A stretch of DNA of 64,000 nucleotides from Halanaerobium kushneri. GTDB taxonomy: Bacteria; Bacillota; Halanaerobiia; Halanaerobiales; Halanaerobiaceae. This document shows, piece after piece, positions 7,001 to 44,297 of this stretch. The notes under the pieces were generated by a model that saw nothing but the letters and a program-made list of their open reading frames with translations, ran no database searches and was not told where the DNA came from. A program made the position numbers and the translations under genes. Every line of letters begins with the position of its first letter. The first letter of the stretch is position 1. The DNA is taken from contig NZ_FTNC01000003.1 in the NCBI RefSeq assembly GCF_900156285.1, positions 1-64,000 of the forward strand, given 5' to 3'.

Positions 7001-8335
7001 ATGAGAAAACTGACTTTTTTAATGGTGATTTTACTTGCTTTTATCCTGACATTTTCAGCTGCAGCTCAGGAGCCAGTAACTATTGAATTCTGGCATGCTA
7101 TGGGTGGCTACAATGGTGAAATTGTAAATACTATTGTGGAGAGATTTAATGAAAGTCATGATGATATTCAGGTTGAAGCCCAAAATACAGGTAGTTATAA
7201 TGATACTTTAACTAAAACACAGGCTGCAGTCCAGAGTGGATCAGCACCTCATATTGTTCAGATTTATGAGATTGGAACTCAGGTTATGCTTGATAGTGGT
7301 ATTATAATTCCTGTAGAAGAATTAGGAAGAGAAGTGGCTCAGGATGACAGCTTCGATTGGGGTAAATTTTTAATTCCTGTTTCTAATTATTATAATGTAA
7401 ATGGCCAGCTGAATTCAATGCCTTTTAATTCATCTACACCTATTTTATATTATAATAAAGATGCTTTTGAAGAAGCAGGTCTGGATCCAAATGATCCTCC
7501 ACAGACTTTTGAAGAGTTAAAAGAATATGCTCGTAAACTTACAATTCGGAATGAAGATGGAGATGTAGAGCGTTATGGATTTACCTTAGGTATAGTTGGC
7601 TGGTTTGTTGAACAGATGACAGCTAACCAGGATGCCTTACTTGTTAACAATAATAATGGTCGTGATGGACGAGCTACTGAGTCTTATTTAGATCGGGAAC
7701 CAGTAGTGAGATTTATTGAACTCTGGAAAGAAATGGTTGATGAAGGTATAATGTTAAATCCAGGTCGCGGCTGGGATGGAGCCAAGCAGGCCTTCCTTTC
7801 TGGTAGAGCTGCAATGATGATTGAGTCAACCGCACAGGTTACTAACTTTACCAATAATGCTGAAAACGATGGTTATGAACTGGGAACAGCTTTCCTACCT
7901 CGTCCTCAGGGCGTAGATCGTGGTGGAGTTGTAATTGGTGGAGCAAGCCTCTGGGCTGTAAGAGATCATCCTGAAGAAGAACTTAAAGCTGCCTGGGAAT
8001 TCTTAAGTTTCCTTTCCGAAATGGAGCAGCAGGTATACTGGTTTGAAAATACCGGTTATTTCCCGGTAACAAAAGCAGCTGTAGAGCATGAAATGAATGG
8101 TCAATTCTTTGCGCAGAATCCAAACCATTTAACTGCATTTCTACAGTTATTATTGAGTAAAAGAGCTTCTTCTACTCAGGGTGCATTAATTGGTACTTTC
8201 CCTGAAGTAAGACAGATTGTGGAAGAGGCAGTAGAAAAGACTCTGCAGGGAGATATGACTCCTCAGGAAGCAATGGATGAAGCAGCTTCCAGAGTTGACA
8301 GATCATTAGAACAGTATAATTCACTATATGAATAA
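7001..8335 (+). CDS. ABC transporter extracellular solute-binding protein, UgpB-like (copy 2)
   Basis: A 444-residue binding protein, exported by a signal peptide (MRKLTFLMVILLAFILTF, cleavage after SAAAQ). The mature N-terminus TIEFWHAMGGYNGE and later VIGGASLWAV match the UgpB-type family, which binds glycerol-3-phosphate or its diesters. The frame is open back to 6908, but ATG at 7001 is the start because AGGGGAG lies ten bases upstream and the signal peptide begins there. It heads an operon with two permeases and a glycerophosphodiester phosphodiesterase, which strengthens the substrate guess. A perfect promoter and a downstream hairpin favour high expression of this gene relative to the permeases. 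Confidence 0.88.
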   Translation: MRKLTFLMVILLAFILTFSAAAQEPVTIEFWHAMGGYNGEIVNTIVERFNESHDDIQVEAQNTGSYNDTLTKTQAAVQSGSAPHIVQIYEIGTQVMLDSGIIIPVEELGREVAQDDSFDWGKFLIPVSNYYNVNGQLNSMPFNSSTPILYYNKDAFEEAGLDPNDPPQTFEELKEYARKLTIRNEDGDVERYGFTLGIVGWFVEQMTANQDALLVNNNNGRDGRATESYLDREPVVRFIELWKEMVDEGIMLNPGRGWDGAKQAFLSGRAAMMIESTAQVTNFTNNAENDGYELGTAFLPRPQGVDRGGVVIGGASLWAVRDHPEEELKAAWEFLSFLSEMEQQVYWFENTGYFPVTKAAVEHEMNGQFFAQNPNHLTAFLQLLLSKRASSTQGALIGTFPEVRQIVEEAVEKTLQGDMTPQEAMDEAASRVDRSLEQYNSLYE

Positions 8336-8373
8336 AAGGCATAGAAAGTAGAAAAGTTTGTTATGCCTCTTAA

Positions 8374-8400
8374 CCCCTTCCTCGCTTATTGAGGAGGGGG
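8374..8400 (+). terminator. Intercistronic attenuating hairpin after the binding-protein gene
   Basis: CCCCTTCCTC (8374-8383) pairs with GAGGAGGGGG (8391-8400, one G-U) and is followed by ATTTTT. Its place between binding protein and permease suggests partial termination or 3'-end protection, giving more binding protein than permease. Confidence 0.7.
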
Positions 8401-8463
8401 ATTTTTCCATTAAAAATTAATAATCTATAAATTACTAGATATTCCAGGGGAGGTAGAAAAAAA

Positions 8464-9351
8464 TTGAAAGAACAAGATTATGACTCACATTTTTCGGTTC
8501 CATATTTATTAATATTACCGTCAATGATTATTTTAACTCTTTTTTTATACTGGCCTACAATCCAGTCTGTGATTTTAAGTTTATATCGGACAGCTCCATT
8601 TGGTGCCCGTAGAATCTATTCCGGCTTTGATAATTATATAAATTTATTTACTGATCCAGTTTACAGAGCAAGTCTGCTCAGATCAGCTGTTTTTGTTTTA
8701 ATTACTATTTTTGGTGGTCTGGCTGTATCTTTAATTTTGTCTGTGCTGGTTAATCAGAAATTGAAGGGGATTAAAATTTACCGGACTATATTTTTTATAC
8801 CTTATGCTATTTCTCCCACAGTAGCCGGTTCTCTCTGGGTATTCCTTTTAAACCCGGTAGCTGGTCATGTGAATTACTTTTTAGATCTTTTATTTAATGT
8901 TCAGGTGCCCTGGCTTACCAATGGTTTTTTTGCTTTTATAGCTATTATAATTGCAACTATCTGGAAAAACATGGGGTTTAATATTATATTTTTTCTGGCT
9001 GGGCTGCAGTCAATTCCAGACAGTGTTTATGAATCTGCCAGAATTGATGGAGCGAATTCTTTTCAAATTTTTAGAAAAATAACTATTCCTCTGCTTTCTC
9101 CTACAACTTTTTATCTAATTATTATGAACATTATTTTTACTGTTTTTCAGTCTTTTGGTATTGTAGATATTATGACTCAGGGTGGACCTGCAGATGCTAC
9201 TAATATTGTAATCTACAAATTATACCGGGATATGTTTGTTAATTTCCGTCCGGGACTGGCGGCAGCACAATCAGTAATTTTGCTTATTCTGGTATTAATA
9301 GTAACCTTCTTCCACTTTAGATTTGGCAGTAGAGGTGTTCATTACCAGTAA
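8464..9351 (+). CDS. ABC transporter permease, UgpA/MalF-type (copy 2)
   Basis: A 295-residue membrane protein with six predicted spans. The EAA loop is ESARIDGANSFQIFR (about residues 189-203) and DIMTQGGPADATNIV follows before the last span. Start is TTG at 8464, behind a strong GGGGAGG; no better ATG exists. It lies 128 bases after the binding-protein gene and 92 before the partner permease. It is the paralogue of the permease at 4569-5456. No ATPase gene is present in either operon. Confidence 0.85.
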   Translation: MKEQDYDSHFSVPYLLILPSMIILTLFLYWPTIQSVILSLYRTAPFGARRIYSGFDNYINLFTDPVYRASLLRSAVFVLITIFGGLAVSLILSVLVNQKLKGIKIYRTIFFIPYAISPTVAGSLWVFLLNPVAGHVNYFLDLLFNVQVPWLTNGFFAFIAIIIATIWKNMGFNIIFFLAGLQSIPDSVYESARIDGANSFQIFRKITIPLLSPTTFYLIIMNIIFTVFQSFGIVDIMTQGGPADATNIVIYKLYRDMFVNFRPGLAAAQSVILLILVLIVTFFHFRFGSRGVHYQ

Positions 9352-9443
9352 AAGATAAAAAAATTCTGATGAGATAAAATTAATCAATTTTAAAATCAAC
9401 TAAATTATAAAAGGAGAAATATTATAGAAGGAGTGGTTATCTG

Positions 9444-10280
9444 ATGCGCAAATCTCGAAAAGATTTAATAAATAAAATTTCAACCCATCTGCTCTTAATG
9501 GTAATTAGCTTTATAGTTTTAATGCCTATTTTACTGGCATTAAGTGTAAGTTTTCAACCCAGAGCGCAGATTTTTTCTTATCCACCGTCATTGATTCCGG
9601 ATAAATTATATTTTGGCAACTATATTAATGCCTGGAATTTAGTCAATATGGATCGGCTGCTAGTTAACAGTCTTTTAGCTTCGGCAATTGTAATGTTTGG
9701 TAAACTGGCTCTTGGAGTTTTAAGTGGTTATGCATTTTCTCACTTTGAATTTAAATACAAAAAAACACTGTTTTTTGCTATTTTATTTACTCTGATGCTG
9801 CCGATGCAGGTAAGAGTAGTTCCCCTATTTGAATTTGTCAGTAAACTTGGCCTGGCAAATACATATTCAGGATTGGTTCTTCCTTTTCTGGCAAGTGCAA
9901 CAACAACTTTTTTAATGAGGCAGCATTTTTTGACAATTCCCACCTCTCTTATGGAGTCTGCACAGCTCGATGGCTGTGGCCCTTTTAGGTTCTTATTTCA
10001 AATTCTGATCCCGCTTTCCGGTCCAACTTTGGCCGGTCTGGCAACAGTAAATTTTCTAGTTATGTGGAATGCTTATCTCTGGCCTTTAATCATTTTGAAT
10101 TCTGACGAAATGAAGGTTGCCCAACAGGGGGTAAAAATGTTATTCACCAGTGCTTCAGAACGAGACTGGGGACTAATTATGGCTGGTACAATCATGGTGG
10201 TTATTCCAACTTTAATTGTTTTTTTGCTGGCTCAAAAGTTCTTTGTTAAAGGTATTGCGACCCAGGGACTGAAAGAATAA
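9444..10280 (+). CDS. ABC transporter permease, UgpE/MalG-type (copy 2)
   Basis: A 278-residue six-span permease with the EAA loop ESAQLDGCGPFRFLF (about residues 171-185). It forms the heterodimeric channel with the preceding UgpA-type protein. The ATG at 9444 follows GAAGGAG by about nine bases. The glycerophosphodiester phosphodiesterase gene begins 73 bases downstream. It is paralogous to the permease at 3725-4552. Confidence 0.85.
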   Translation: MRKSRKDLINKISTHLLLMVISFIVLMPILLALSVSFQPRAQIFSYPPSLIPDKLYFGNYINAWNLVNMDRLLVNSLLASAIVMFGKLALGVLSGYAFSHFEFKYKKTLFFAILFTLMLPMQVRVVPLFEFVSKLGLANTYSGLVLPFLASATTTFLMRQHFLTIPTSLMESAQLDGCGPFRFLFQILIPLSGPTLAGLATVNFLVMWNAYLWPLIILNSDEMKVAQQGVKMLFTSASERDWGLIMAGTIMVVIPTLIVFLLAQKFFVKGIATQGLKE

Positions 10281-10353
10281 ACTTGCAGCTTATTTAAAAA
10301 AACTGTATTATAATATTAAATTTTAATTAAGATGGATAGAGGAAGTGATAGTT

Positions 10354-11088
10354 TTGAGGACAAAGATTATTGGACACCGCGGTGGAGCAGCTGGCTATCC
10401 CGAAAATACTCTGGCAGCTTTCAAAAAAGCTGTTGATTTTGGAGCTGATGGGGTGGAATTTGATGTACAGCTGACCAGGGATGGAGAAGTAGTGGTAATT
10501 CATGATGAATTAATTGACAGGACAATGACCGGAAGTGGTCTGGTTAAAGATTATACTCTTGCTGAACTGCGTGAAATGAGTGCTGGAGAATTTTTTAGTC
10601 CTGAATTTAAAGCCGAAAAAATTCCAACCCTGGCAGAAGTTCTGAAAGTTGTTAAGGGGCTGGAAGTAATTAATATTGAATTGAAAAATTATCTCCCCTA
10701 CCCTCGACTGGAGGAAAAGGTCTTAAAACTGGTTGACCAGTTTGGATTAAGAGAACAGGTAATCATTTCTTCTTTTAATCATTACAGTCTGCAGAAAATA
10801 AAGAGATTACAGCCGGAAATGAAAACCGGATGTCTTTTGATGTCAAAAATGATAAATGCTGCTGATTATGCATTTAAAAGAGGCTTTAATGCTTTGCACC
10901 TCCATTTTTTAACAGCTGACCAGGAGGTGGTCGAAAAAGCTCATTTTATGGGTCTGCAGCTGAATGTTTACACAGTTAATTTTCCCGATGCAGTTGCCGG
11001 GCTGCTTGAAAAAAAGGTTGATATGATTATGACTGATGACATTGAGATGGCTCTTGAAATCAGAGATAAAATTGAGAACAAGTCCTGA
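10354..11088 (+). CDS. Glycerophosphodiester phosphodiesterase (GlpQ/UgpQ-like)
   Basis: A cytosolic phosphodiesterase of about 244 residues that would hydrolyse glycerophosphodiesters to glycerol-3-phosphate and an alcohol. It has the family signature IIGHRGGAAGYPENTLAAF at the N-terminus, GADGVEFDVQLTRDGEVVVIHD with the metal-binding Glu, Asp and His, and INIELK. It lacks a signal peptide, like UgpQ. TTG at 10354 is preferred over GTG at 10345: the site AGAGGA (10338-10343) is only one base from the GTG but ten from the TTG, and the enzyme then starts MRTKIIGHRGG. Its place behind a UgpB-like transporter suggests import and cleavage of lipid head-group diesters. Confidence 0.88.
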   Translation: MRTKIIGHRGGAAGYPENTLAAFKKAVDFGADGVEFDVQLTRDGEVVVIHDELIDRTMTGSGLVKDYTLAELREMSAGEFFSPEFKAEKIPTLAEVLKVVKGLEVINIELKNYLPYPRLEEKVLKLVDQFGLREQVIISSFNHYSLQKIKRLQPEMKTGCLLMSKMINAADYAFKRGFNALHLHFLTADQEVVEKAHFMGLQLNVYTVNFPDAVAGLLEKKVDMIMTDDIEMALEIRDKIENKS

Positions 11089-11109
11089 ACCAGTCTTTGA
11101 ACCAGTCTT
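11086..11109 (+). repeat. Tandem 12-base repeat over a stop codon
   Basis: TGAACCAGTCTT occurs twice back to back (11086-11097 and 11098-11109). The first copy supplies the TGA stop of the phosphodiesterase. It looks like a recent slippage duplication. Confidence 0.7.
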
Positions 11110-11174
11110 AAAGTATAGCTTTTTAAGTTTCAATATTCCTCTTAAATTTTTAATCAAAACTTAATTTCTATAGT

Positions 11175-11203
11175 TTGAATTAGCTGTTAATCTTTATTAT
11201 AAT
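11175..11203 (+). promoter_or_regulatory. Sigma-A promoter of the PRC-barrel gene
   Basis: TTGAAT (11175-11180), a 17-base spacer and TATAAT (11198-11203) lie 75 bases before the ATG at 11278. Confidence 0.6.
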
Positions 11204-11277
11204 TAAGTTAGAAGGAGATAAACTTAAATAGATTGATCTTCCGTTTTGAGGCGAAAATTTAAGAGAGGTGAGCAGTT

Positions 11278-12060
11278 ATGTTAAGAAAGCTCAAAAATCT
11301 CGAAGGATTTACTGTTCAGGGTCGTGATGAAAAGCTGGGTAAGACAAAAGACTTTTATTTTGATCAACATCGTTTTGTATTGAGGTATCTTGTTATAGAT
11401 ACAGGTAACTGGCTTAAACACGAAAAAACCTTAATTTCTACAGATTCATTTGAGGAAATAAATTATGATAATCAGGAAATCATTGTCAATCTGACAGCAG
11501 AAGATCTGGAAGCAGGACCAAGTATTCAGAAAAACAAACCAGTTTCCAGAGTGATGGAGGAAAAAGTAGTTAAACATTTTGACTGGCCAATTTACTGGAC
11601 AAGTTCTCATCCTGCGGATGGACCTGCTATTCAGGCAGGCAGCATAATTAGAGAGAAATTATTTAATTTCGAGAATCTAACTGATGAGGAAAAACAGGCA
11701 AAAGAGAAAGAAATCGAATCCAATCTGCGCAGCTTTAACGAAATTCGTGGTTATCACATTCAGGCTCAGGATAAAGAATTTGGCCATTTAGAAGATCTAT
11801 TTGTTGACGAAGAAAACTGGGTGATTCGCTATCTGTTAATCGATACTCGAAATATTCTGCCTGGAAAAGATGTTCTGATAGCACCGGAGTGGCTGCAGAA
11901 TATTAGCTGGAATAAAGAAAAATTATATGTCAGCAAAACCAGGGAAGAAATTAAAAATGCTCCGGAGTATAGAGAAGAAAGCAGCGATTATCTGGTTGAT
12001 CGTAGGTACGAAGAAAAACTCTATAATCACTATGATGAGATTAAATACTGGCAGCAGTAA
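11278..12060 (+). CDS. Double PRC-barrel domain protein
   Basis: A 260-residue cytosolic protein with two PRC-barrel-like repeats, about residues 1-80 and 155-235. The repeats share GFTVQGRDEKLGKTKDFYFD / GYHIQAQDKEFGHLEDLFVD followed by RYLVIDTGNWL / RYLLIDTRNIL. PRC barrels occur in the ribosome-maturation factor RimM and in photosynthetic reaction-centre H subunits, but stand-alone doubles like this have no firm function; several are linked to stress. The ATG at 11278 follows GAGAGGTGAG. It is a single-gene unit with its own promoter and terminator. The segment between the repeats (about 85-150) is charged and unassigned. Confidence 0.75.
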   Translation: MLRKLKNLEGFTVQGRDEKLGKTKDFYFDQHRFVLRYLVIDTGNWLKHEKTLISTDSFEEINYDNQEIIVNLTAEDLEAGPSIQKNKPVSRVMEEKVVKHFDWPIYWTSSHPADGPAIQAGSIIREKLFNFENLTDEEKQAKEKEIESNLRSFNEIRGYHIQAQDKEFGHLEDLFVDEENWVIRYLLIDTRNILPGKDVLIAPEWLQNISWNKEKLYVSKTREEIKNAPEYREESSDYLVDRRYEEKLYNHYDEIKYWQQ

Positions 12061-35973: not shown

Positions 35974-36052
35974 TTGATCTAGATTTATTTTAGATCTGGT
36001 TAAAATTGAGGTACTGATGCAGTAAACTATTTCGGTAGGGAATGCAATATCT

Positions 36053-36078
36053 CCCCTCCTGTAAATTTTCAGGAGGGG
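36053..36078 (+). terminator. Intercistronic attenuating hairpin after the sugar-binding-protein gene
   Basis: CCCCTCCTG (36053-36061) pairs perfectly with CAGGAGGGG (36070-36078), followed by AAGATTTATTTT. It lies between binding protein and first permease. Confidence 0.7.
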
Positions 36079-36104
36079 AAGATTTATTTTATGGAGTGAT
36101 AGCT

Positions 36105-37025
36105 ATGAAAAGAAAACATAAAGAATCACTTACTTCACTTGCAATTTTATCACCGTCAATAATTACTCTGGCAGTATTTGTCTATGGTTTTATCAGCCGC
36201 AGTGTTCAGATTTCTCTGCTTGACTGGGACACTTTTTCCAGTTTTATGCGGAAGGCAAAGGATTATGTAGGTTTAGAAAATTATGCCGGACTCTTTCGGG
36301 AAGCGAGGTTTCAGACTGATCTCTGGAACACCCTTTATTTTACTCTCTTTTTTATCCTGGGCTGTCTGGCAATTGGTATTTTACTGTCTTTAATTTTGAA
36401 TAATAAGCCTAAAGGAGGATATTTCTTTCAGAATCTTTATCTTTTCCCGATGGCAATTTCCTTTGTAGTAACAGGTACAGTCTGGCGCTGGATTTTTGCT
36501 CCTGGTCGTTTACCCGATAATCCCCGGGGTATTAATCTGCTCTTTGAGCAGCTGGGGCTCGATGTTTTTCAGTGGGGCTGGTTTACCAGCACCGGTAACT
36601 TTTTGGGTTTCAATATTGCGCTGGTAGCTGTAATAATTGCTGCTGTCTGGCAGTACTCAGGTTATACAATGGCCATGTGGCTGGCCGGTCTGCGGGGAAT
36701 TGATCAGCAGCTGATAGAAGCAGCCCGGATTGATGGTGCCAGTAAGTGGCAGGTTTTTACCAAAATATTATTTCCAATCCAAAAGCCAATTACTCTTTCG
36801 GCGATTATAGTACTGGCTCACGTATCACTAAAAGCCTTTGCTTTAATCTATGCGATGACAGGTAGTGGACCAAATAATGTAACTGATATTCCAGCAGTCT
36901 ATATGTTTGAGGCCACCTTTAGATCCAACCGCTATTCAACAGGTTCGGCAATAGCAATTGTACTTTTAATGATGGTTGGACTGCTGATTATACCTTATCT
37001 GGTCAACAGCTTTAAGGAGGAGTAA
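36105..37025 (+). CDS. ABC sugar transporter permease (first subunit)
   Basis: A 306-residue permease with six predicted spans and the EAA loop EAARIDGASKWQVFTKI (about residues 204-220). ATG at 36105 (MKRKHKES) is the start because GGAGTGA lies just upstream; the frame opens at 36042 but the added segment overlaps the attenuating hairpin. Four bases separate its stop from the next permease gene. It forms the membrane channel with that partner. Confidence 0.88.
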   Translation: MKRKHKESLTSLAILSPSIITLAVFVYGFISRSVQISLLDWDTFSSFMRKAKDYVGLENYAGLFREARFQTDLWNTLYFTLFFILGCLAIGILLSLILNNKPKGGYFFQNLYLFPMAISFVVTGTVWRWIFAPGRLPDNPRGINLLFEQLGLDVFQWGWFTSTGNFLGFNIALVAVIIAAVWQYSGYTMAMWLAGLRGIDQQLIEAARIDGASKWQVFTKILFPIQKPITLSAIIVLAHVSLKAFALIYAMTGSGPNNVTDIPAVYMFEATFRSNRYSTGSAIAIVLLMMVGLLIIPYLVNSFKEE

Positions 37026-37028
37026 GCA

Positions 37029-37856
37029 ATGGACGAAAAAATGACAACTCAAGAAAAAATAATTAGATATGCTATTTTAATTGCCTTTGCCATATTTTTT
37101 CTGATTCCAATGTATGTACTTTTATCTACCAGTTTAAAGAGTTTTTCCGAAGTTTCAATTAACACAATGTGGCAGCTGCCCGACTCGCTTTCTTTTGAAG
37201 GATTTAGAGAGGCTTTTACCAAATTGGCTCCCAATGTGTTAAACAGTTTTTATCTGGTAATTCCGGCCACTCTGCTTTCTGCCATTATGGGCTCAATGAA
37301 TGGTTATGTATTATCACACTGGAAATTTAAAGGTTCAGATACACTCTTTGCTTTAATTTTATTTGGGATGTTTATTCCCTACCAGAGTGTACTTTTTCCT
37401 CTGGTCCAGTTTATGCAGACAATAGGACTTTATGGTTCAATTCCGGGTCTTATTTTAGTTCATGTTGTTTATGGTCTGCCAATTACCACCTTAATGTTTA
37501 GAAATTATTATCAGGATGTTCCGGAGGCTCTAACAGAGGCGGCAAAAGTTGATGGAGCGAATATTTTTAGTATTTATCGTCATATCTTTTTTCCAATTTC
37601 CATTCCGTCTTTTGTAGTAGTCTTTATCTGGCAGTTTACAAATATCTGGAACGAATTTCTCTTTGCTGTTTCTTTAACTGATACCCAGAGTCAGCCAATT
37701 ACTGTAGCTCTAACCAATCTGGCCGGAAGTCAGGTTGTGGAGTGGAATGTGCAGATGAGTGGAGCAATAATTACTGCTCTACCAACCCTTTTAGTTTATA
37801 TTATTTTTGGTCGTTACTTTATTAAGGGGATGCTGGCCGGTTCAGTTAAGGGATAA
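37029..37856 (+). CDS. ABC sugar transporter permease (second subunit)
   Basis: A 275-residue six-span permease of the MalG type with the EAA loop EAAKVDGANIFSIYRHI (about residues 175-191). The ATG at 37029 lies just after AAGGAGGAG within the end of the preceding gene. It ends FGRYFIKGMLAGSVKG, the usual MalG-like C-terminus that helps dock the ATPase. The ATPase is presumably a shared MsmX-like protein encoded elsewhere. A terminator follows. Confidence 0.88.
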   Translation: MDEKMTTQEKIIRYAILIAFAIFFLIPMYVLLSTSLKSFSEVSINTMWQLPDSLSFEGFREAFTKLAPNVLNSFYLVIPATLLSAIMGSMNGYVLSHWKFKGSDTLFALILFGMFIPYQSVLFPLVQFMQTIGLYGSIPGLILVHVVYGLPITTLMFRNYYQDVPEALTEAAKVDGANIFSIYRHIFFPISIPSFVVVFIWQFTNIWNEFLFAVSLTDTQSQPITVALTNLAGSQVVEWNVQMSGAIITALPTLLVYIIFGRYFIKGMLAGSVKG

Positions 37857-37879
37857 TTTTTACTTAAACTTAAAAATGA

Positions 37880-37928
37880 ATAAAACAGAGATATACTCAG
37901 TCACTAATGGCTGGGTTTTATCTTTTTT
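37880..37928 (+). terminator. Terminator after the third ABC importer
   Basis: ATAAAAC (37880-37886) pairs with GTTTTAT (37915-37921) around an inner CTCAGTC/GGCTGGG stem with G-U pairs, then CTTTTTT. The rest up to 38171 is AT-rich with no recognisable element. Confidence 0.65.
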
Positions 37929-38171
37929 AAAAGCTAAAAAATAGTGTTTAACAGAATATGGTTTTAAATTAGATTTTTCAAACGAGCTTTTTCCGGGTTA
38001 AAATTATACTCTGAGAGAGGAATTGCAGCTTTTTTCAAGAAATAAATAAAGAGTGGTTAATTAGCTGTATATTTTTTGATATTTAAAATAGTAAGGCATT
38101 CTACTTAATTTATCTAAATTTATCACTAATAAAGTACTTAAAAATTTTTAAATTAGAGGAGTGAGTTGTTA

Positions 38172-39164
38172 ATGGAGAAAATCAAATGGGGAATTTTAGG
38201 CTGTGCAAATATTGCTCGCAAGGCTGTAATACCAGGCATTATAGCTGCCGAAAATTCAGAATTATATGCTGTGGCCAGTCGGAGTCAGGAAAAAGCGGCT
38301 GATTTTGCGGAGCAATTTGGAGCTGCTGTCTATTATGATGATTATGATAAACTGCTGGCTGACGAAGAGATAGAAGCTGTTTATATTCCACTGCCCAATG
38401 GAATGCATAAGGAATGGACAATAAAGGCAGCAGAAGCTGGAAAACATATTTTATGTGAAAAACCACTTTCCGGAAAAAGCAAAGCAGAAGCAGAGGAAAT
38501 GTTTGCTGCTGCCAAAAAAAATGGAGTTAAGTTGATGGAGGCCTTTATGTATCGTTTTCAGCCTTTTGTGGTTAAGCTCAAAGAAATGGTTGCTGACGGA
38601 GTTATTGGAGAGATTAAAGAGATTAAAAGTAATTTTGCTTTTGATATTAGTGACCGTGATAATGACATTCGTCTCAGTGCTGAATTAGATGGAGGAGCCT
38701 TAAATGATATCGGCTGTTATACTGTTAATATCTCGCGTTATTTAATGGGAGGAATGCCAACGAAAGTTGCTAATTTCTTTCAAAAAGAAACAGCGGCAGG
38801 TGTTGATTTAAGCGGAAGTGGTACTCTCTATTTTGAAGGCGGGTCTTTTGCCAGTCTTTATTACAGCCTCAATTCTTATAATGAGCAGGACCTGGAAGTA
38901 GTAGGGACAGAAGGTATAATTAGAGTACCAGGATTTTTCTCCTGGCTGGAAGAAAATTATTTTCTGCTGGATAAAAATGGTGAGGTGGAAAAGCTTGAAG
39001 TGGAAACCGGTGCTCAATATCAGCTTGAAGTGGAAGCCTTTGCCAGAGCAATCATTTATCAGACTGAGGTGCCGCTAAAAGTAGAAGAAGAAACATATGC
39101 CAACCTGAAAGTTATGGATGCTATGCGCAGATCAGCTGCAGAGGAGACAGTGGTTAAGCTTTAG
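38172..39164 (+). CDS. Gfo/Idh/MocA-family oxidoreductase
   Basis: A 330-residue NAD(P)-dependent dehydrogenase. The Rossmann fold begins GILGCANIARKAVIPGI (about residues 6-22), the family EKP motif is HILCEKPLSG (about 92-101), and the catalytic-domain region GGALNDIGCYTVN follows (about 176-188). Members oxidise or reduce sugars, inositols and related compounds; substrate unknown. ATG at 38172 is preferred over TTG at 38166, since AGGAG (38157-38161) is ten bases away from it. Between the importer and galT it may process the imported sugar. Confidence 0.85.
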   Translation: MEKIKWGILGCANIARKAVIPGIIAAENSELYAVASRSQEKAADFAEQFGAAVYYDDYDKLLADEEIEAVYIPLPNGMHKEWTIKAAEAGKHILCEKPLSGKSKAEAEEMFAAAKKNGVKLMEAFMYRFQPFVVKLKEMVADGVIGEIKEIKSNFAFDISDRDNDIRLSAELDGGALNDIGCYTVNISRYLMGGMPTKVANFFQKETAAGVDLSGSGTLYFEGGSFASLYYSLNSYNEQDLEVVGTEGIIRVPGFFSWLEENYFLLDKNGEVEKLEVETGAQYQLEVEAFARAIIYQTEVPLKVEEETYANLKVMDAMRRSAAEETVVKL

Positions 39165-39306
39165 TAAAGTTTTCACATTAATTTTTTGAGATTACTGGAT
39201 TTTTTGCCTGAAATCAAATACAATAATAACAATAGAGTATTTCAGCTATTTTTAATAAAATAAGAAATTTGATTTTTTGCAGTCAGTACTGACAGGAGGT
39301 TGAATT

Positions 39307-40869
39307 GTGGAAATAGAAAAGGTTAATCAGATTATAGAAAAATTATTGGTTTATGGTGAGTCCAACGATCTGCTGGGAGACTGGGATCGAGTTGCGGCTC
39401 GTAATCAGATCAGAAGTATTTTAGATATTAAGGAAAGTCCGGCATCTGCTTTAACGGAAGAAGATTTTGAGATTCCCGCTGAGCCCCAGGTTTTACTGGA
39501 TCCACTTTTAGATTTTGCAGTTGAAAAGGGACTGATTAAGGATCGGGTAACAGAAAGAGATCTTCTGGATACTAAAATTATGGGGGCACTGACACCTCGC
39601 CAGTCGGAAATTGGGCGTCGTTTTTATCAGACCGCCGAAAGAGAAGGAATCAAAAGGGCTACTAATGAGTACTATCATTTTGCTAAAGCAAGTAATTATA
39701 TCCGCCAGGCCCGAATTGCCCGCGATTTAAATTGGAAGGCCGAAAGTGATTATGGTCAGATTGAGATTACTATCAATCTTTCCAAGCCGGAGAAAGACCC
39801 GGATGAGATCGCAAAAGCAAAAGAAGAACCTCAGAGTAATTATCCAAAATGTTATCTCTGTCTTGAAAATGTGGGATATCCAGGCAATTTTAGTCATCCT
39901 GCCCGTCAGAACCACAGAGTTGTACCTTTAAAACTGCAGAATGAAGACTGGTTTTTACAGTATTCGCCCTATGTTTACTATAATGAACACTGTATAGTTT
40001 TTCATGAAGATCATATTCCAATGCAGATTGATAAAAACACTTTTGCCGTACTGCTGGACTTTATTGACCAGCTGCCGCATTATTTTATCGGTTCTAATGC
40101 TGATCTACCGCTCGTTGGTGGTTCAATTTTAAATCATGATCATTATCAGGGAGGACGACATATTTTCCCGATGGAAGAAGCGGAGGCAGAAAAGTTTTAT
40201 CAGCATCCAACCTTTCCCGAAGTTGAGATCAGCCGGGTTAAGTGGCCAATGTCGGTAATCCGTCTTAAAGCGGAAGTCAGAGAAGATATTATTAATCTGG
40301 CTGCTAAAATTTTAGATAACTGGCGTCAGTATTCTGATCCGGATCTTGATATTCTTGCTTTTTCTCAGGTTGATGGCAAACAGAAAGCTCATAATACAAT
40401 AACCCCAATTGCCCGGAAAAAGAACGGTCTCTATGAATTGGATCTGGTGCTGAGAAATAATCGTAAAAGCGAGGAATATCCGGATGGTATTTTTCATCCG
40501 CATGCAGATTTACATCATATTAAAAAAGAAAATATCGGTCTGATTGAGGTAATGGGAAGAGCTATTCTGCCGGGACGGTTAAAGACTGAATTAAACTGGA
40601 TTTCTAGTTATTTAAGTGGTGATCTGGAGCTGGACGAGTTAAAAATGAAGGATGGTCTGGGAAAACATTTAGACTGGGTTGCAGAGCTTAAAAATGAATA
40701 TGGTATTAATTTAAGTGAGGAAGAAGCCGAGCGAGTTGTAGAAGTTGAAGTGGCCGGTAAATTCAGCCGGGTTCTTGAGGATGCTGGAGTTTATAAAAAT
40801 AATTCAATCGGATATAAGGGTTTTGAGCGATTTCTGGAAAGTGCAGGTATCGAGGTCTCAGAACTATAA
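39307..40869 (+). CDS. galT: Galactose-1-phosphate uridylyltransferase, type 2
   Basis: A 520-residue enzyme of the Firmicutes (type 2) GalT family, which is longer than and distant from E. coli GalT. It transfers UMP between UDP-glucose and galactose-1-phosphate in the Leloir pathway. The active-site HxHxQ motif is GSILNHDHYQGG (about residues 274-285), and CYLCLENVGYPGNFSHPARQ is typical of this family. GTG at 39307 follows GGAGG. galK and galE are not in the window. It is followed after 20 bases by a GntR-type regulator, probably in the same transcript. Confidence 0.92.
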   Translation: MEIEKVNQIIEKLLVYGESNDLLGDWDRVAARNQIRSILDIKESPASALTEEDFEIPAEPQVLLDPLLDFAVEKGLIKDRVTERDLLDTKIMGALTPRQSEIGRRFYQTAEREGIKRATNEYYHFAKASNYIRQARIARDLNWKAESDYGQIEITINLSKPEKDPDEIAKAKEEPQSNYPKCYLCLENVGYPGNFSHPARQNHRVVPLKLQNEDWFLQYSPYVYYNEHCIVFHEDHIPMQIDKNTFAVLLDFIDQLPHYFIGSNADLPLVGGSILNHDHYQGGRHIFPMEEAEAEKFYQHPTFPEVEISRVKWPMSVIRLKAEVREDIINLAAKILDNWRQYSDPDLDILAFSQVDGKQKAHNTITPIARKKNGLYELDLVLRNNRKSEEYPDGIFHPHADLHHIKKENIGLIEVMGRAILPGRLKTELNWISSYLSGDLELDELKMKDGLGKHLDWVAELKNEYGINLSEEEAERVVEVEVAGKFSRVLEDAGVYKNNSIGYKGFERFLESAGIEVSEL

Positions 40870-40889
40870 TAAAGAAGGAAGTGTTGAGT

Positions 40890-41576
40890 ATGAGTAAATT
40901 TAATTTAAGTGCAATTGATTCTTACAGTTATGAACCTTTAAGAAAACAGGTTTATAAAGTTCTGCGGGAAGCCATTTTAAAAGGTGAGCTGATGATCGGG
41001 GAAAAGATAACTGAGATGGAGATCGCGGAAGAGCTCAGTGTCAGTAGAACCCCGGTGAGAGAGGCCTTTAGAATGCTGGAACAGGAGGAATTGATTAATA
41101 TTATTCCTCAGCAGGGCGTTTTTGTGGCTGGAATTGAAACAAAAAAAGAAATTGACGATATTTTTCAGCTCCGGACGGAACTGGAGGGGCTGGCCGCCTA
41201 TCTGGCCGCCCAGAATATTGATGAAAAACAGAAACAGCTCTTAAGGGAATATACTGAGGAGCTGGAAGACTGTATTGAACATAATGATCAGCGAGGCTGT
41301 ATCCGGGTGGATGTTGCTTTTCATCGAATAATTAAAGAAGCCTCTAATAATAAGTGGCTGGAGAAATTTCTGGATACACTTTTTGAGCAGGCAACTCGCT
41401 TCCGGCGGAGCAGTTTTTCCCGCCAGGGAAGGATGCAGGAATTTCTGGCCGAGCATAAGGAGCTGGCCGAGGCAATAGCCAGTGGCGATGCTGAGCGGGC
41501 TCGAGAATGTGCCGAAGAGCATATTAGGGCAGCCTGGCAGAGTATTATTACAGTTTTTGAAAAAGAGAATAGGTAG
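40890..41576 (+). CDS. GntR-family transcriptional regulator, FCD type
   Basis: A 228-residue regulator with an N-terminal winged helix (EMEIAEELSVSRTPVREAFR, then MLEQEELINIIPQQGVFV, about residues 38-80) and a helical FCD domain (about 90-220) with likely metal-binding histidines in VDVAFHRIIKEAS. ATG at 40890 has AAGGAAG upstream; GTG at 40881 is too close to it. As the last gene of the galT group it may control the importer and sugar-processing genes. A perfect terminator palindrome follows. Confidence 0.87.
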   Translation: MSKFNLSAIDSYSYEPLRKQVYKVLREAILKGELMIGEKITEMEIAEELSVSRTPVREAFRMLEQEELINIIPQQGVFVAGIETKKEIDDIFQLRTELEGLAAYLAAQNIDEKQKQLLREYTEELEDCIEHNDQRGCIRVDVAFHRIIKEASNNKWLEKFLDTLFEQATRFRRSSFSRQGRMQEFLAEHKELAEAIASGDAERARECAEEHIRAAWQSIITVFEKENR

Positions 41577-41589
41577 CAAAGAAATTTAT

Positions 41590-41620
41590 GGCTGTAGAGA
41601 GATATCTCTACAGCCTTTTT
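41590..41620 (+). terminator. Terminator after the galT-linked regulator
   Basis: GGCTGTAGAGAGA (41590-41602) and TATCTCTACAGCC form a perfect palindrome to 41615, followed by TTTTTATAT. Confidence 0.85.
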
Positions 41621-41690: not shown

Positions 41691-43409
41691 ATGAAAAAAA
41701 TGTTTAAACTAATGATTCTATTTTCTCTTCTCGTAACTTTGTTAAGTGGATGTTCAAATGGTGGCAATATTGCTGGTGACTCAGGATTGGATAATACAGG
41801 TGATAGTAATAATGTGATTGTAAGTAAAGAGGGTGGCGGAGAAGTCATTTTAGAAGAGGAGGATAGTACAACTACAAAATTGATGGCCCAGGCAGCTGAC
41901 AGTTATTATTTTTCTCACTGGGAAGGTGATCTGAGTGGTACTAATAATCCAGAATATATAGATAATACTGCTCCCCGAGAGGTAACTGCAGTTTTTCTCA
42001 GTCAGGAAGAGAATAATCCGGATGGTACAGATGCAAATGGAGTTTTTAAGCTGATTAATTCCTGGGGAGAAAATTGGGGGGCATTTAACGATGGGTCCTA
42101 TTATATAAGTTATGAGGCTGCGATTGCCAATAATCTCGATTTATATTTAATAGCTCCTCGTGATCAGTATCAACCAAAAGCTCTGGCGGTTTTCAATATC
42201 GAAGCAGCCTCACGTAAAGACGTTGAGATAAAATTTGAGACTGCCGATGGTAGTAAACAGCTCTATCCAGCATCTGCTCCCTATGATTATGATGGCAGTA
42301 TGAATAATATTCCTGTCAATCAAAAAGGAGGAGCTTCTGCTTTTCCTGAAAATAATATTGCTCTTGATATTTCAAGTCTGCTGCCAATAAATGGTGAGAT
42401 TACTCTAACAGTTACTAATTCAGGTAGTAGTGATATCTATTTGAATAACTGGCAGCTAGAAGAATATTCTGCTTATCCAGGTACTCCGGTGCAAACTTAC
42501 AGTTCTAATCTTAGTTCTGAACTAATTGCTGCCGGTAACTCAAAGAGTTTTACAATGAATATTAATATTGAAACCAGTGTTTCAGCTCAAGCTGACAGCA
42601 GTTCCGGTTTGGATAGTTATGTTCGCGATTATACTGAGGCTGACTGGAGGAGCAGGGAAAATAAACATTTAAGGGCTCAGAGTTATCACAATGATAGTTT
42701 TGGCAGAGGTTTAAAAGAGCTATCAGCCGAAGAGATGAAAACTGCTCTGGAAAGTGGTATAGTAAAAACAATTGATGCTGGTGCTCTTGCAGGTGATCAA
42801 ATTAAAGTTGCCGGAGAAGCAAGTCTGGATTATTCTGCTTCTGAATATTTTCCTCCGGTAGGAAATCAGGGCAGTGAAGGTTCCTGTGCTTCCTGGAGTA
42901 CTGTCTATTACATGCTCGGTTTCTATCAAGCTCGAGATCAGGGTTGGGATCTAAGTGCAGCTGCAGTAACTGGAGTAGATCAGAGCCAATTAATGAGCCC
43001 AGATTTTATTTATCAGCTGATTAACGGCGGCCAGGATGGAGGAAGTTATTATACTGATAACCTGATGATGCTTGCCAACCTCGGAGCTGCAAGCTGGGCC
43101 GAGATGCCGGCTGATGATAGTGAATATCTAAGCTGGGGCAGTGAAGAAGCCTGGAGAACAGCGGCTGGCCATCGAGTTGATTATCCAATATATTATCTGC
43201 AGATAAATAATTATACAGATATCAAGGCAGTAAAAGATCTTCTGGATCAGGGATATTTACTTTCAGCAGCTATTGATAGTACCCAGTATAATAGTAATGG
43301 TATCTGGACAGTTGATAATTACAGCAACCCATATTTAGATCATGCCAATACAGTAGTTGGTTATGATGACTCCTATCAAAATAGTGTTGAAGAAATTTCT
43401 ATTAAATAA
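41691..43409 (+). CDS. Lipoprotein papain-family (C1) cysteine peptidase with permuted catalytic motifs
   Basis: A 572-residue secreted lipoprotein (lipobox LLSGC, Cys21). Residues 44-104 form an InlB-type bacterial repeat (YYFSHWEGDLSG, ending VTAVF). Residues 116-142 read GVFKLINSWGENWG and then GSYYISYEA: this is the papain Asn motif that normally lies near the end of the peptidase domain. The oxyanion Gln and catalytic Cys come much later (PPVGNQGSEGSCASWS, Q393 and C399), and the catalytic His is in LDHANTVVGYDD (H551), after which the protein stops. The order is therefore Asn-Cys-His rather than Cys-His-Asn. It is either a circularly permuted enzyme or a scrambled, possibly inactive one. 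The next gene encodes a chagasin-type inhibitor of such peptidases. Confidence 0.75.
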   Translation: MKKMFKLMILFSLLVTLLSGCSNGGNIAGDSGLDNTGDSNNVIVSKEGGGEVILEEEDSTTTKLMAQAADSYYFSHWEGDLSGTNNPEYIDNTAPREVTAVFLSQEENNPDGTDANGVFKLINSWGENWGAFNDGSYYISYEAAIANNLDLYLIAPRDQYQPKALAVFNIEAASRKDVEIKFETADGSKQLYPASAPYDYDGSMNNIPVNQKGGASAFPENNIALDISSLLPINGEITLTVTNSGSSDIYLNNWQLEEYSAYPGTPVQTYSSNLSSELIAAGNSKSFTMNINIETSVSAQADSSSGLDSYVRDYTEADWRSRENKHLRAQSYHNDSFGRGLKELSAEEMKTALESGIVKTIDAGALAGDQIKVAGEASLDYSASEYFPPVGNQGSEGSCASWSTVYYMLGFYQARDQGWDLSAAAVTGVDQSQLMSPDFIYQLINGGQDGGSYYTDNLMMLANLGAASWAEMPADDSEYLSWGSEEAWRTAAGHRVDYPIYYLQINNYTDIKAVKDLLDQGYLLSAAIDSTQYNSNGIWTVDNYSNPYLDHANTVVGYDDSYQNSVEEISIK

Positions 43410-43432
43410 AGATAGTTATGAGGTGACAACCA

Positions 43433-44137
43433 ATGAATAATTTATTTAAAAACTCAAATAGCAAAATAATTCTGCTGTTTATTATCCTGATTTGTTTAAA
43501 TGGAACTGCTGCAGCAATAAACTTAAAAGCATTAAATACGGAAGAAATCAGTCAGATAAAATTGTTTGAAAATCCTGACGCCGGTCAGCGGTGGCAGATA
43601 AAAGTTAAGAATCCGGAACTTATCTCTTTGCTTTCTGAAGGTTATGAGCCGCTGAAAAAAAGAGAGCAGCTGGCAGGTGAAGGAGGAATTCACAGCTGGT
43701 ATTTTGAGGCTGCAAAGAAAGGTGCAGCTCTGGTTAATTTTAACCTTTTAAATGCTGAAGCTGGGAGTTTAGTTAGCCAAAAAACTTATCTTTTTGCTAT
43801 CAATTTACTGACCAGGGAAATAGCAGTGGATGAAATTTTAGAGCTTAAACTGGCGGAAAATCCGAGTACAGGTTATCGCTGGAGTTTAATAGAATCAGAG
43901 GCTAAGATTTTGGAGCTGCTTGCAGCTGATTATCAAAGAGATGCTGCTGGCCCAGAATCAGATGTTGAGGCAGCAGAATCTAAAATAGAGGGCTCCGGGC
44001 TGTTGGTTGGCCGGGGAGGAATTAAAAGCTGGACTTTTAGGGGAGCTGCAGCCGGCTATCAGCGCTTAAGTTTTGAGCTTGCCCGCAAAGGTGGGGAGGT
44101 AATAAAAACTGTCGATTATCTAGTTTTGGTAGAATAG
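43433..44137 (+). CDS. Secreted double chagasin-type (I42) cysteine peptidase inhibitor
   Basis: A 234-residue exported protein (signal peptide about 1-28) with two chagasin-like repeats. Repeat 1 has ENPDAGQRW (46-54), GEGGI (82-86) and SWYF; repeat 2 has ENPSTGYRW (142-150), GRGGI (193-197) and SWTF. These correspond to the NPTTGY, GxGG and RPW/F loops with which chagasin blocks papain-like enzymes. Repeat 1 is more divergent in its first loop. It begins 23 bases after the peptidase gene, behind GAGGTGA, so the two are probably co-expressed. Guarding the cell from its own peptidase is the natural guess; blocking foreign peptidases is an alternative. Confidence 0.8.
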   Translation: MNNLFKNSNSKIILLFIILICLNGTAAAINLKALNTEEISQIKLFENPDAGQRWQIKVKNPELISLLSEGYEPLKKREQLAGEGGIHSWYFEAAKKGAALVNFNLLNAEAGSLVSQKTYLFAINLLTREIAVDEILELKLAENPSTGYRWSLIESEAKILELLAADYQRDAAGPESDVEAAESKIEGSGLLVGRGGIKSWTFRGAAAGYQRLSFELARKGGEVIKTVDYLVLVE

Positions 44138-44266: not shown

Positions 44267-44297
44267 AAAAACGCTGTCTTTGCCGACAGCGTTTTTT
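44267..44297. terminator. Bidirectional terminator
   Basis: AAAAACGCTGTC (44267-44278) pairs perfectly with GACAGCGTTTTT (44285-44296). It serves the inhibitor gene and the convergent GGDEF/EAL gene. Confidence 0.85.

Follow-up and report, generated by a model that had tools for sequence, protein, structure and literature searches.

The window analyzed in the current study (64,000 nucleotides of DNA from the halophile Halanaerobium kushneri) carries a gene for a papain-type peptidase (41691-43409) in which the catalytic residues occur in the order Asn, Cys, His instead of Cys, His, Asn. The sequence strongly supports the interpretation that the protein is a circularly permuted C1 domain bridged by a beta-rich domain. 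It is followed by a gene for a tandem chagasin (I42) protein of 234 residues (43433-44137), and the pair likely encodes an exported, lipid-anchored, permuted C1 peptidase together with a co-exported and probably protective chagasin-type inhibitor.

Both ORFs lie on the forward strand with the coordinates and the 23-base gap given in the initial annotation of this DNA. Codon checks placed N123, Q393, C399 and H551 where it had located them, with the chain ending 21 residues past H551. A putative ribosome-binding site precedes the ATG of the peptidase gene (GGAGGT) and that of the inhibitor gene (GAGGTG). The upstream GntR gene has its own intrinsic terminator (41590-41615, forward strand; 11-pair stem, then TTTTT), which divides it from the pair, and a terminator 3' of the pair (44267-44296; hairpin of -16.9 kcal/mol, z -4.95) is common to a convergent GGDEF/EAL gene. 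Ribosome-binding sites on both genes and a terminator on each side make a bicistronic transcript likely, i.e. the two genes are probably transcribed as one unit. Co-directional genes at 36042-41576 run up to the pair; they were named, by eye except for the last, as sugar ABC transporter permeases, a Gfo/Idh-type dehydrogenase, a galactose-1-phosphate uridylyltransferase-like protein and a GntR/FCD regulator.

The peptidase is a predicted lipoprotein of 572 residues. Its signal peptide (41691-41753) contains the lipobox LLSGC, from which acylation of Cys21 is predicted, and an accessory InlB-type repeat (PF18998) occupies residues 42-103 (41814-41999). The displaced C-terminal papain part follows at residues 117-157 (42039-42161; positions 176-208 of the normal-order HMM) and includes Trp125 and the catalytic Asn123 (codon 42057-42059) within the motif GVFKLINSWGENWG. 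A bridging domain rich in beta strands (residues 158-262, 42162-42476; pLDDT 70-85 for the modeled strands) leads from the old C end to the old N end, and a linker (residues 263-375, 42477-42815), in which G338, G340 and D362 are invariant in the alignment, takes the place of a propeptide. The Cys-His papain part (residues 376-560, 42816-43370; HMM positions 2-178) carries NQGSEGSC, with the nucleophile Cys399 (codon 42885-42887) and, six residues before it, the oxyanion-hole residue Gln393 (42867-42869), and DHANTVVGYDD, with His551 (43341-43343). About 220 other residues separate the Asn and Cys parts.

A search for C1 peptidases with the same motif order, as suggested in the initial annotation, found it in six genomes of four genera. 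Two further Halanaerobium records (L003 and L004) encode peptidases 78% identical to the window protein, and the class has proteins with 35-41% identity across the whole chain in three further genera (L008, L009 and L010). The parts follow in the order Asn, bridge, linker, Cys, His in all six proteins, and N123, W125, Q393, C399 and H551 are invariant. Values of dN/dS were 0.02-0.04 across the Asn and Cys-His segments; dN was 0.03-0.06 in the Asn segment, 0.04-0.05 in the Cys-His segment and 0.17-0.20 for bridge plus linker, and dS exceeded 0.9 in every segment. This conservation of order and residues in six genomes, together with the low dN/dS, indicates that the layout goes beyond chance. 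A scan for the Asn-plus-bridge segment over 59 genomes of the class and 398 of the phylum matched only the permuted family, apart from one additional match, which fell on the Asn motif of a protein with normal order. No permuted homolog was detected in viral contigs, plasmids or phage records, and the plasmid search returned only a normal-order C1 protein of Leptospira.

In the Pfam search, Peptidase_C1 (PF00112) matched residues 378-561 of the window peptidase with 24.1 bits (cut-off 20.7), over positions 4-178 of the 220 in the profile; since the match stops at 178, the Asn part is missing at its C end. L008 and L009 also matched PF00112 above the cut-off; L010 was not among the matches listed. 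The catalytic Cys, His and Asn of a C1 enzyme and its oxyanion Gln are all present and invariant in the six homologs, whereas the linear Cys-His-Asn order is replaced by Asn-Cys-His, with the HMM pieces swapped.

The normal-order relatives used for comparison (L011, L027-L030 and the viral L057-L060) all run Cys, His, Asn. The N-terminal segment of the permuted proteins aligned only to columns 183-215 of the 224 in the normal-order domain (hhalign probability 97.2%), and the normal-order HMM gave two matches per permuted protein, to positions of about 173-208 earlier in the chain and about 1-182 later. In every permuted member the two pieces abut at positions 176-178, the turn that connects the His strand to the Asn strand (His-Asn turn). 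When its pieces were rejoined in standard order, the window protein scored 143.2 bits, as opposed to 106.7 bits for the Cys-His part alone and at most 112.6 bits with 20 shuffled Asn pieces. Over the six proteins the gain from rejoining was 28-38 bits above Cys-His alone, while shuffled Asn pieces added no more than about 8. A profile built solely from the permuted proteins matched papain relatives in the PDB (1pci, 7w33 and 1cs8) in two pieces of swapped order, the Asn piece alone being weak; the swapped stretches were clearer, in 3ois and 8r78, with a profile that included split normal-order rows as well.

The permuted proteins group as a single clade in the tree built from rejoined domains (100/100 support, a single label change), with L027 as the nearest normal-order sequence. 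Abutting HMM pieces and a single supported clade make a single permutation at the His-Asn turn the simplest history. The circular permutation considered in the initial annotation is thus strongly supported by sequence, as a conserved family of single origin. In the gene tree L008, which belongs to another order, sits beside Halanaerobium (97/96), a placement that would suit horizontal transfer.

The bridging domain is conserved in all six proteins and has no Pfam match, i.e. it belongs to no known sequence family, and no relationship was detectable between it and the Lectin_like domain of normal-order C1 proteins. No normal-order ancestor carrying the same bridging domain was found, and an origin of the permutation by tandem duplication is only inferred.

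AlphaFold gave a mean pLDDT of 38 with the three close orthologs and of 50 when split normal-order viral homologs were added, with L008-L010 left out of the alignments. Local values in the latter model were 56-73 for the Asn segment and about 48-70 for part of the His region. When this model was used in Foldseek and VIA searches, the matches covered the bridging domain only and were lipoxygenase N-terminal-type and CBM60-like sandwiches; the best Z of 7.2 stood among many ties and allowed no identification. With models of this quality, the proposal that N123 completes the triad rests on the sequence, and the low dN of the Asn and Cys-His segments relative to the bridge and linker supports it.

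The fold, activity, localization, co-transcription and inhibition that we infer would combine as follows. The chain would have been opened at the His-Asn turn and its old C and N ends linked via the beta-rich domain and the linker, giving the present order of Asn hairpin, bridge, linker, Cys helix and His strand. The peptidase would be exported and held on the envelope by its lipid anchor, and the N-terminal Asn123 hairpin would pack by the His strand to form a normal Cys-His-Asn triad, with Gln393 as the oxyanion residue. The co-exported chagasin would most likely restrain the peptidase in the producer's own envelope.

Two Inhibitor_I42 stretches (PF09394; E 1.7e-32, above the cut-off) were detected in the product of 43433-44137, which starts with a hydrophobic signal peptide (MNNLFKNSNSKIILLFIILICLNGTAAA), read by eye and without a lipobox; two chagasin-type domains in a secreted protein had been expected here. 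The motifs then listed for both repeats, NPSTGYRW, GRGG and SWTF, hold for the second domain (43820-44101) and not for the first (43535-43792), which has NPDAGQRW, GEGG and SWYF. A single I42 domain is present at both orthologous loci (L003 and L004), 60-61% identical to domain 2 and 37-38% identical to domain 1. The tandem duplication is confined to the window genome, and the first-loop motif of its first copy is decayed.

Of the chagasin contact loops as defined in PMC2607524, loop 2 (NPxTG) reads NPSTGYRW in domain 2 and in both orthologs and is degenerate in domain 1, and loop 4 (GxGG) reads GRGG/GQGG and GEGG. The RPW/F of loop 6 is missing at all three loci, where ELARKGGEVIKTV / ELARSGGEAKKTV was read by eye at the expected place. 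In chagasin, replacement of the loop-6 Trp (W93A) caused a 100-fold loss on cathepsin L and a loss of only about 4-fold on cruzipain (PMC2607524), so the missing motif is compatible with inhibition.

Both genes were found in three of 12 Halanaerobium genomes and neither in the other nine. Within the class, I42 was present in these three genomes and in one other genome, which has no such peptidase. Eight of the Halanaerobium genomes lacking the pair have the upstream GntR gene, with no pair 3' of it, and in L087, L088 (two close relatives), L089 and L094 the GntR gene leads directly into the convergent GGDEF/EAL gene. This joint presence and absence, with empty sites, indicates that in Halanaerobium the two genes arrive and disappear as a unit. 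No chagasin was found near the three more distant permuted peptidases (L008, L009 and L010), which suggests that the inhibitor is not needed by the permuted family as a whole and that the pairing is secondary. The self-protection role raised in the initial annotation is plausible and fits the distribution in Halanaerobium.

At the L004 locus, which is from a MAG (8287-11563, equal to L056:6394-9670), the chagasin gene is separated from the GGDEF/EAL gene by an AAA-ATPase-like ORF (MKKIPIGIDDFKELREKDAYFVDKS), and the GGDEF/EAL gene is in fragments. Elsewhere in the order, a related family has a chagasin-like lipoprotein gene (L055:6112-6789, G018), with no C1 gene in the available sequence.

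An alternative, which we regard as unlikely, is that the chagasin targets some other papain-type enzyme, e.g. one from other cells, and that its neighborhood is incidental. Some genomes do encode a chagasin with no C1 gene in its vicinity, the distant permuted peptidases have none beside them, and a bacterial chagasin-like protein secreted into the apoplast is reported to inhibit host proteases (PMC5014320). Yet the two Halanaerobium genes co-occur in 3/3 genomes, are absent together from the other nine, and lie 19-23 bp apart (23 in the window, 19 in L003 and L004) with terminators on either side, all of which speaks against this alternative.

It is also conceivable, with a rather low probability, that the permutation serves as a control device. 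The Asn hairpin and bridge would then form a lipid-anchored module, cutting of the linker (residues 263-375) would give a two-chain enzyme that receives its catalytic Asn from a separable subunit, and the co-exported chagasin would be the off switch. If so, the activity of a papain-type peptidase would be controlled through the docking of its third catalytic residue. A motif hGtGlkplt...iDs (residues 338-362, 42702-42776), immediately N-terminal of the Cys segment, is kept in all permuted homologs, and the region around G338, G340 and D362 is a possible inhibitory or hinge element.

A reading that appears quite improbable is that the enzyme works with a Cys-His dyad and that the Asn segment is leftover decoration or a separate N-terminal domain. 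The Pfam C1 model does score the Cys-His part alone, and some papain-like families use a dyad (PMC10318531). Against this, dN in the Asn segment is among the lowest in the protein, N123/S124/W125/G126/W129/G130 are invariant across the permuted homologs, and no substitute Asn motif follows the His in any permuted protein; in L009 and L010 the chain ends about twenty residues or fewer past the His. The Asn segment moreover always precedes the bridge, whichever N-terminal domains are present. The mature chain of L008 opens with the Asn segment and has a CBM5/12-like domain C-terminally, and L009 has N-terminal domains different from those of the window peptidase; neither contains the InlB-type repeat. 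The Asn segment is therefore not part of the InlB-like domain. A lipobox-like GC was seen in L009 and L010 and not in L008. As the accessory domains vary around a constant permuted core, an objection named at the outset, that the Asn motif might belong to a separate, unrelated domain, is set aside.

The contact-dependent weapon with immunity, the other role raised at the outset, found nothing specific in its favor, and an antibacterial function of this kind, contact-dependent or secreted, with the chagasin as immunity protein, is very improbable. Surface-type accessory domains (the InlB repeat), the lipid anchor, the adjacent inhibitor and the patchy distribution of the two genes would suit it. 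On the other hand, no toxin-delivery or trafficking domain was recognized with Pfam, NCBIfam or PADLOC (the last gave no match at all), the catalytic part does not form an exchangeable toxin tip at the C end, the enzyme being the whole chain, and homologs elsewhere lack an adjacent inhibitor. Finally, a functionless gene that is a normal-order copy scrambled in this genome only, as named at the outset, or misassembled is suggested by an order unlike that of nearly all C1 peptidases and by the draft state of the window genome (53 contigs), but was rejected as almost certainly wrong, given the same order in independent assemblies and in four genera, strong purifying selection, and a bleomycin-hydrolase-like gene as the only other C1-type match in the genome.

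Compared with known systems, the window peptidase is closest to the secreted bacterial branch of C1 (PF00112; e.g. L027 and L028), with which it shares the Q-x5-C helix, the HAxxxVGYDD-like His strand, NSWGxxWG and export. It differs in having the Asn segment N-terminal of Cys and His, in the joining of the old ends via a new beta-rich domain, and in lacking a recognized propeptide. Permuted papain-like folds are known from NlpC/P60 proteins (LRAT-like, YaeF/YiiX; PMC3142127) and from PPPDE, LupA and OTU-type families with a permuted strand 3, some of which carry the third catalytic residue on the moved strand (PMC10318531). All of these differ from C1 in family and in the position of the cut. 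In the permuted NlpC/P60 proteins the Cys helix has moved to the C end, so that His precedes Cys, whereas here Cys399 precedes His551 and the cut separates the His strand from the Asn strand in a recognizable C1 domain. In the available part of a recent superfamily-wide classification, permutations are given for NlpC/P60, PPPDE and OTU-type families, with none named in C1 (PMC10318531), and no permuted C1 peptidase was found described in a literature search of incomplete coverage.

The inhibitor shares the NPxTGYxW first loop and the GxGG second loop with chagasin/ICP proteins (I42, PF09394; inhibitor of cysteine peptidase, PDB 2wgn), and differs in the missing third-loop RPW/F and, in the window genome, in the tandem arrangement with a degenerate first domain. 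A papain-like peptidase gene adjoining a small-inhibitor gene is also the arrangement of the staphopain/staphostatin and SpeB/Spi operons (PMC3462683). Those peptidases belong to families C47 and C10 and their unrelated inhibitors are thought to be cytoplasmic (PMC3462683), whereas the inhibitor found here has a hydrophobic signal peptide; by analogy with these operons, protection of the producer's envelope is the most likely role.

Among 20 chagasin neighborhoods inspected, one other genus had a normal-order C1 gene adjoining an I42 gene, so the C1/I42 pairing is not unique. At these loci (L125:2811-5247 and L127; G242 and G118) a C1 plus Lectin_like (PF18560) gene is followed after about 130 bases by that for an I42-domain protein. 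They resemble the window pair in the adjacent C1 and chagasin-domain genes, and differ in the standard motif order, the C-terminal position of PF18560, the fusion of I42 to another domain, and beta domains without detectable homology to the bridge. The statement that no system of this layout had been described therefore holds, in the literature searched, for the permuted order in C1, but not for peptidase/inhibitor operons, which are well known. Permuted papain-like enzymes as such are not new either; the permuted order within C1 is new as far as searched.

C1, with papain and the cathepsins, is among the best-studied enzyme families. Since Pfam scores only the Cys-His part, permuted C1 peptidases are partly missed by current models. 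A natural, conserved permutation of single origin at the His and Asn strands tests the tolerance of the papain fold to re-wiring, and the turn between these strands is a tolerated cut site for use in protein engineering. The Halanaerobium pair also provides a compact case of a peptidase and a chagasin that are gained and lost together.
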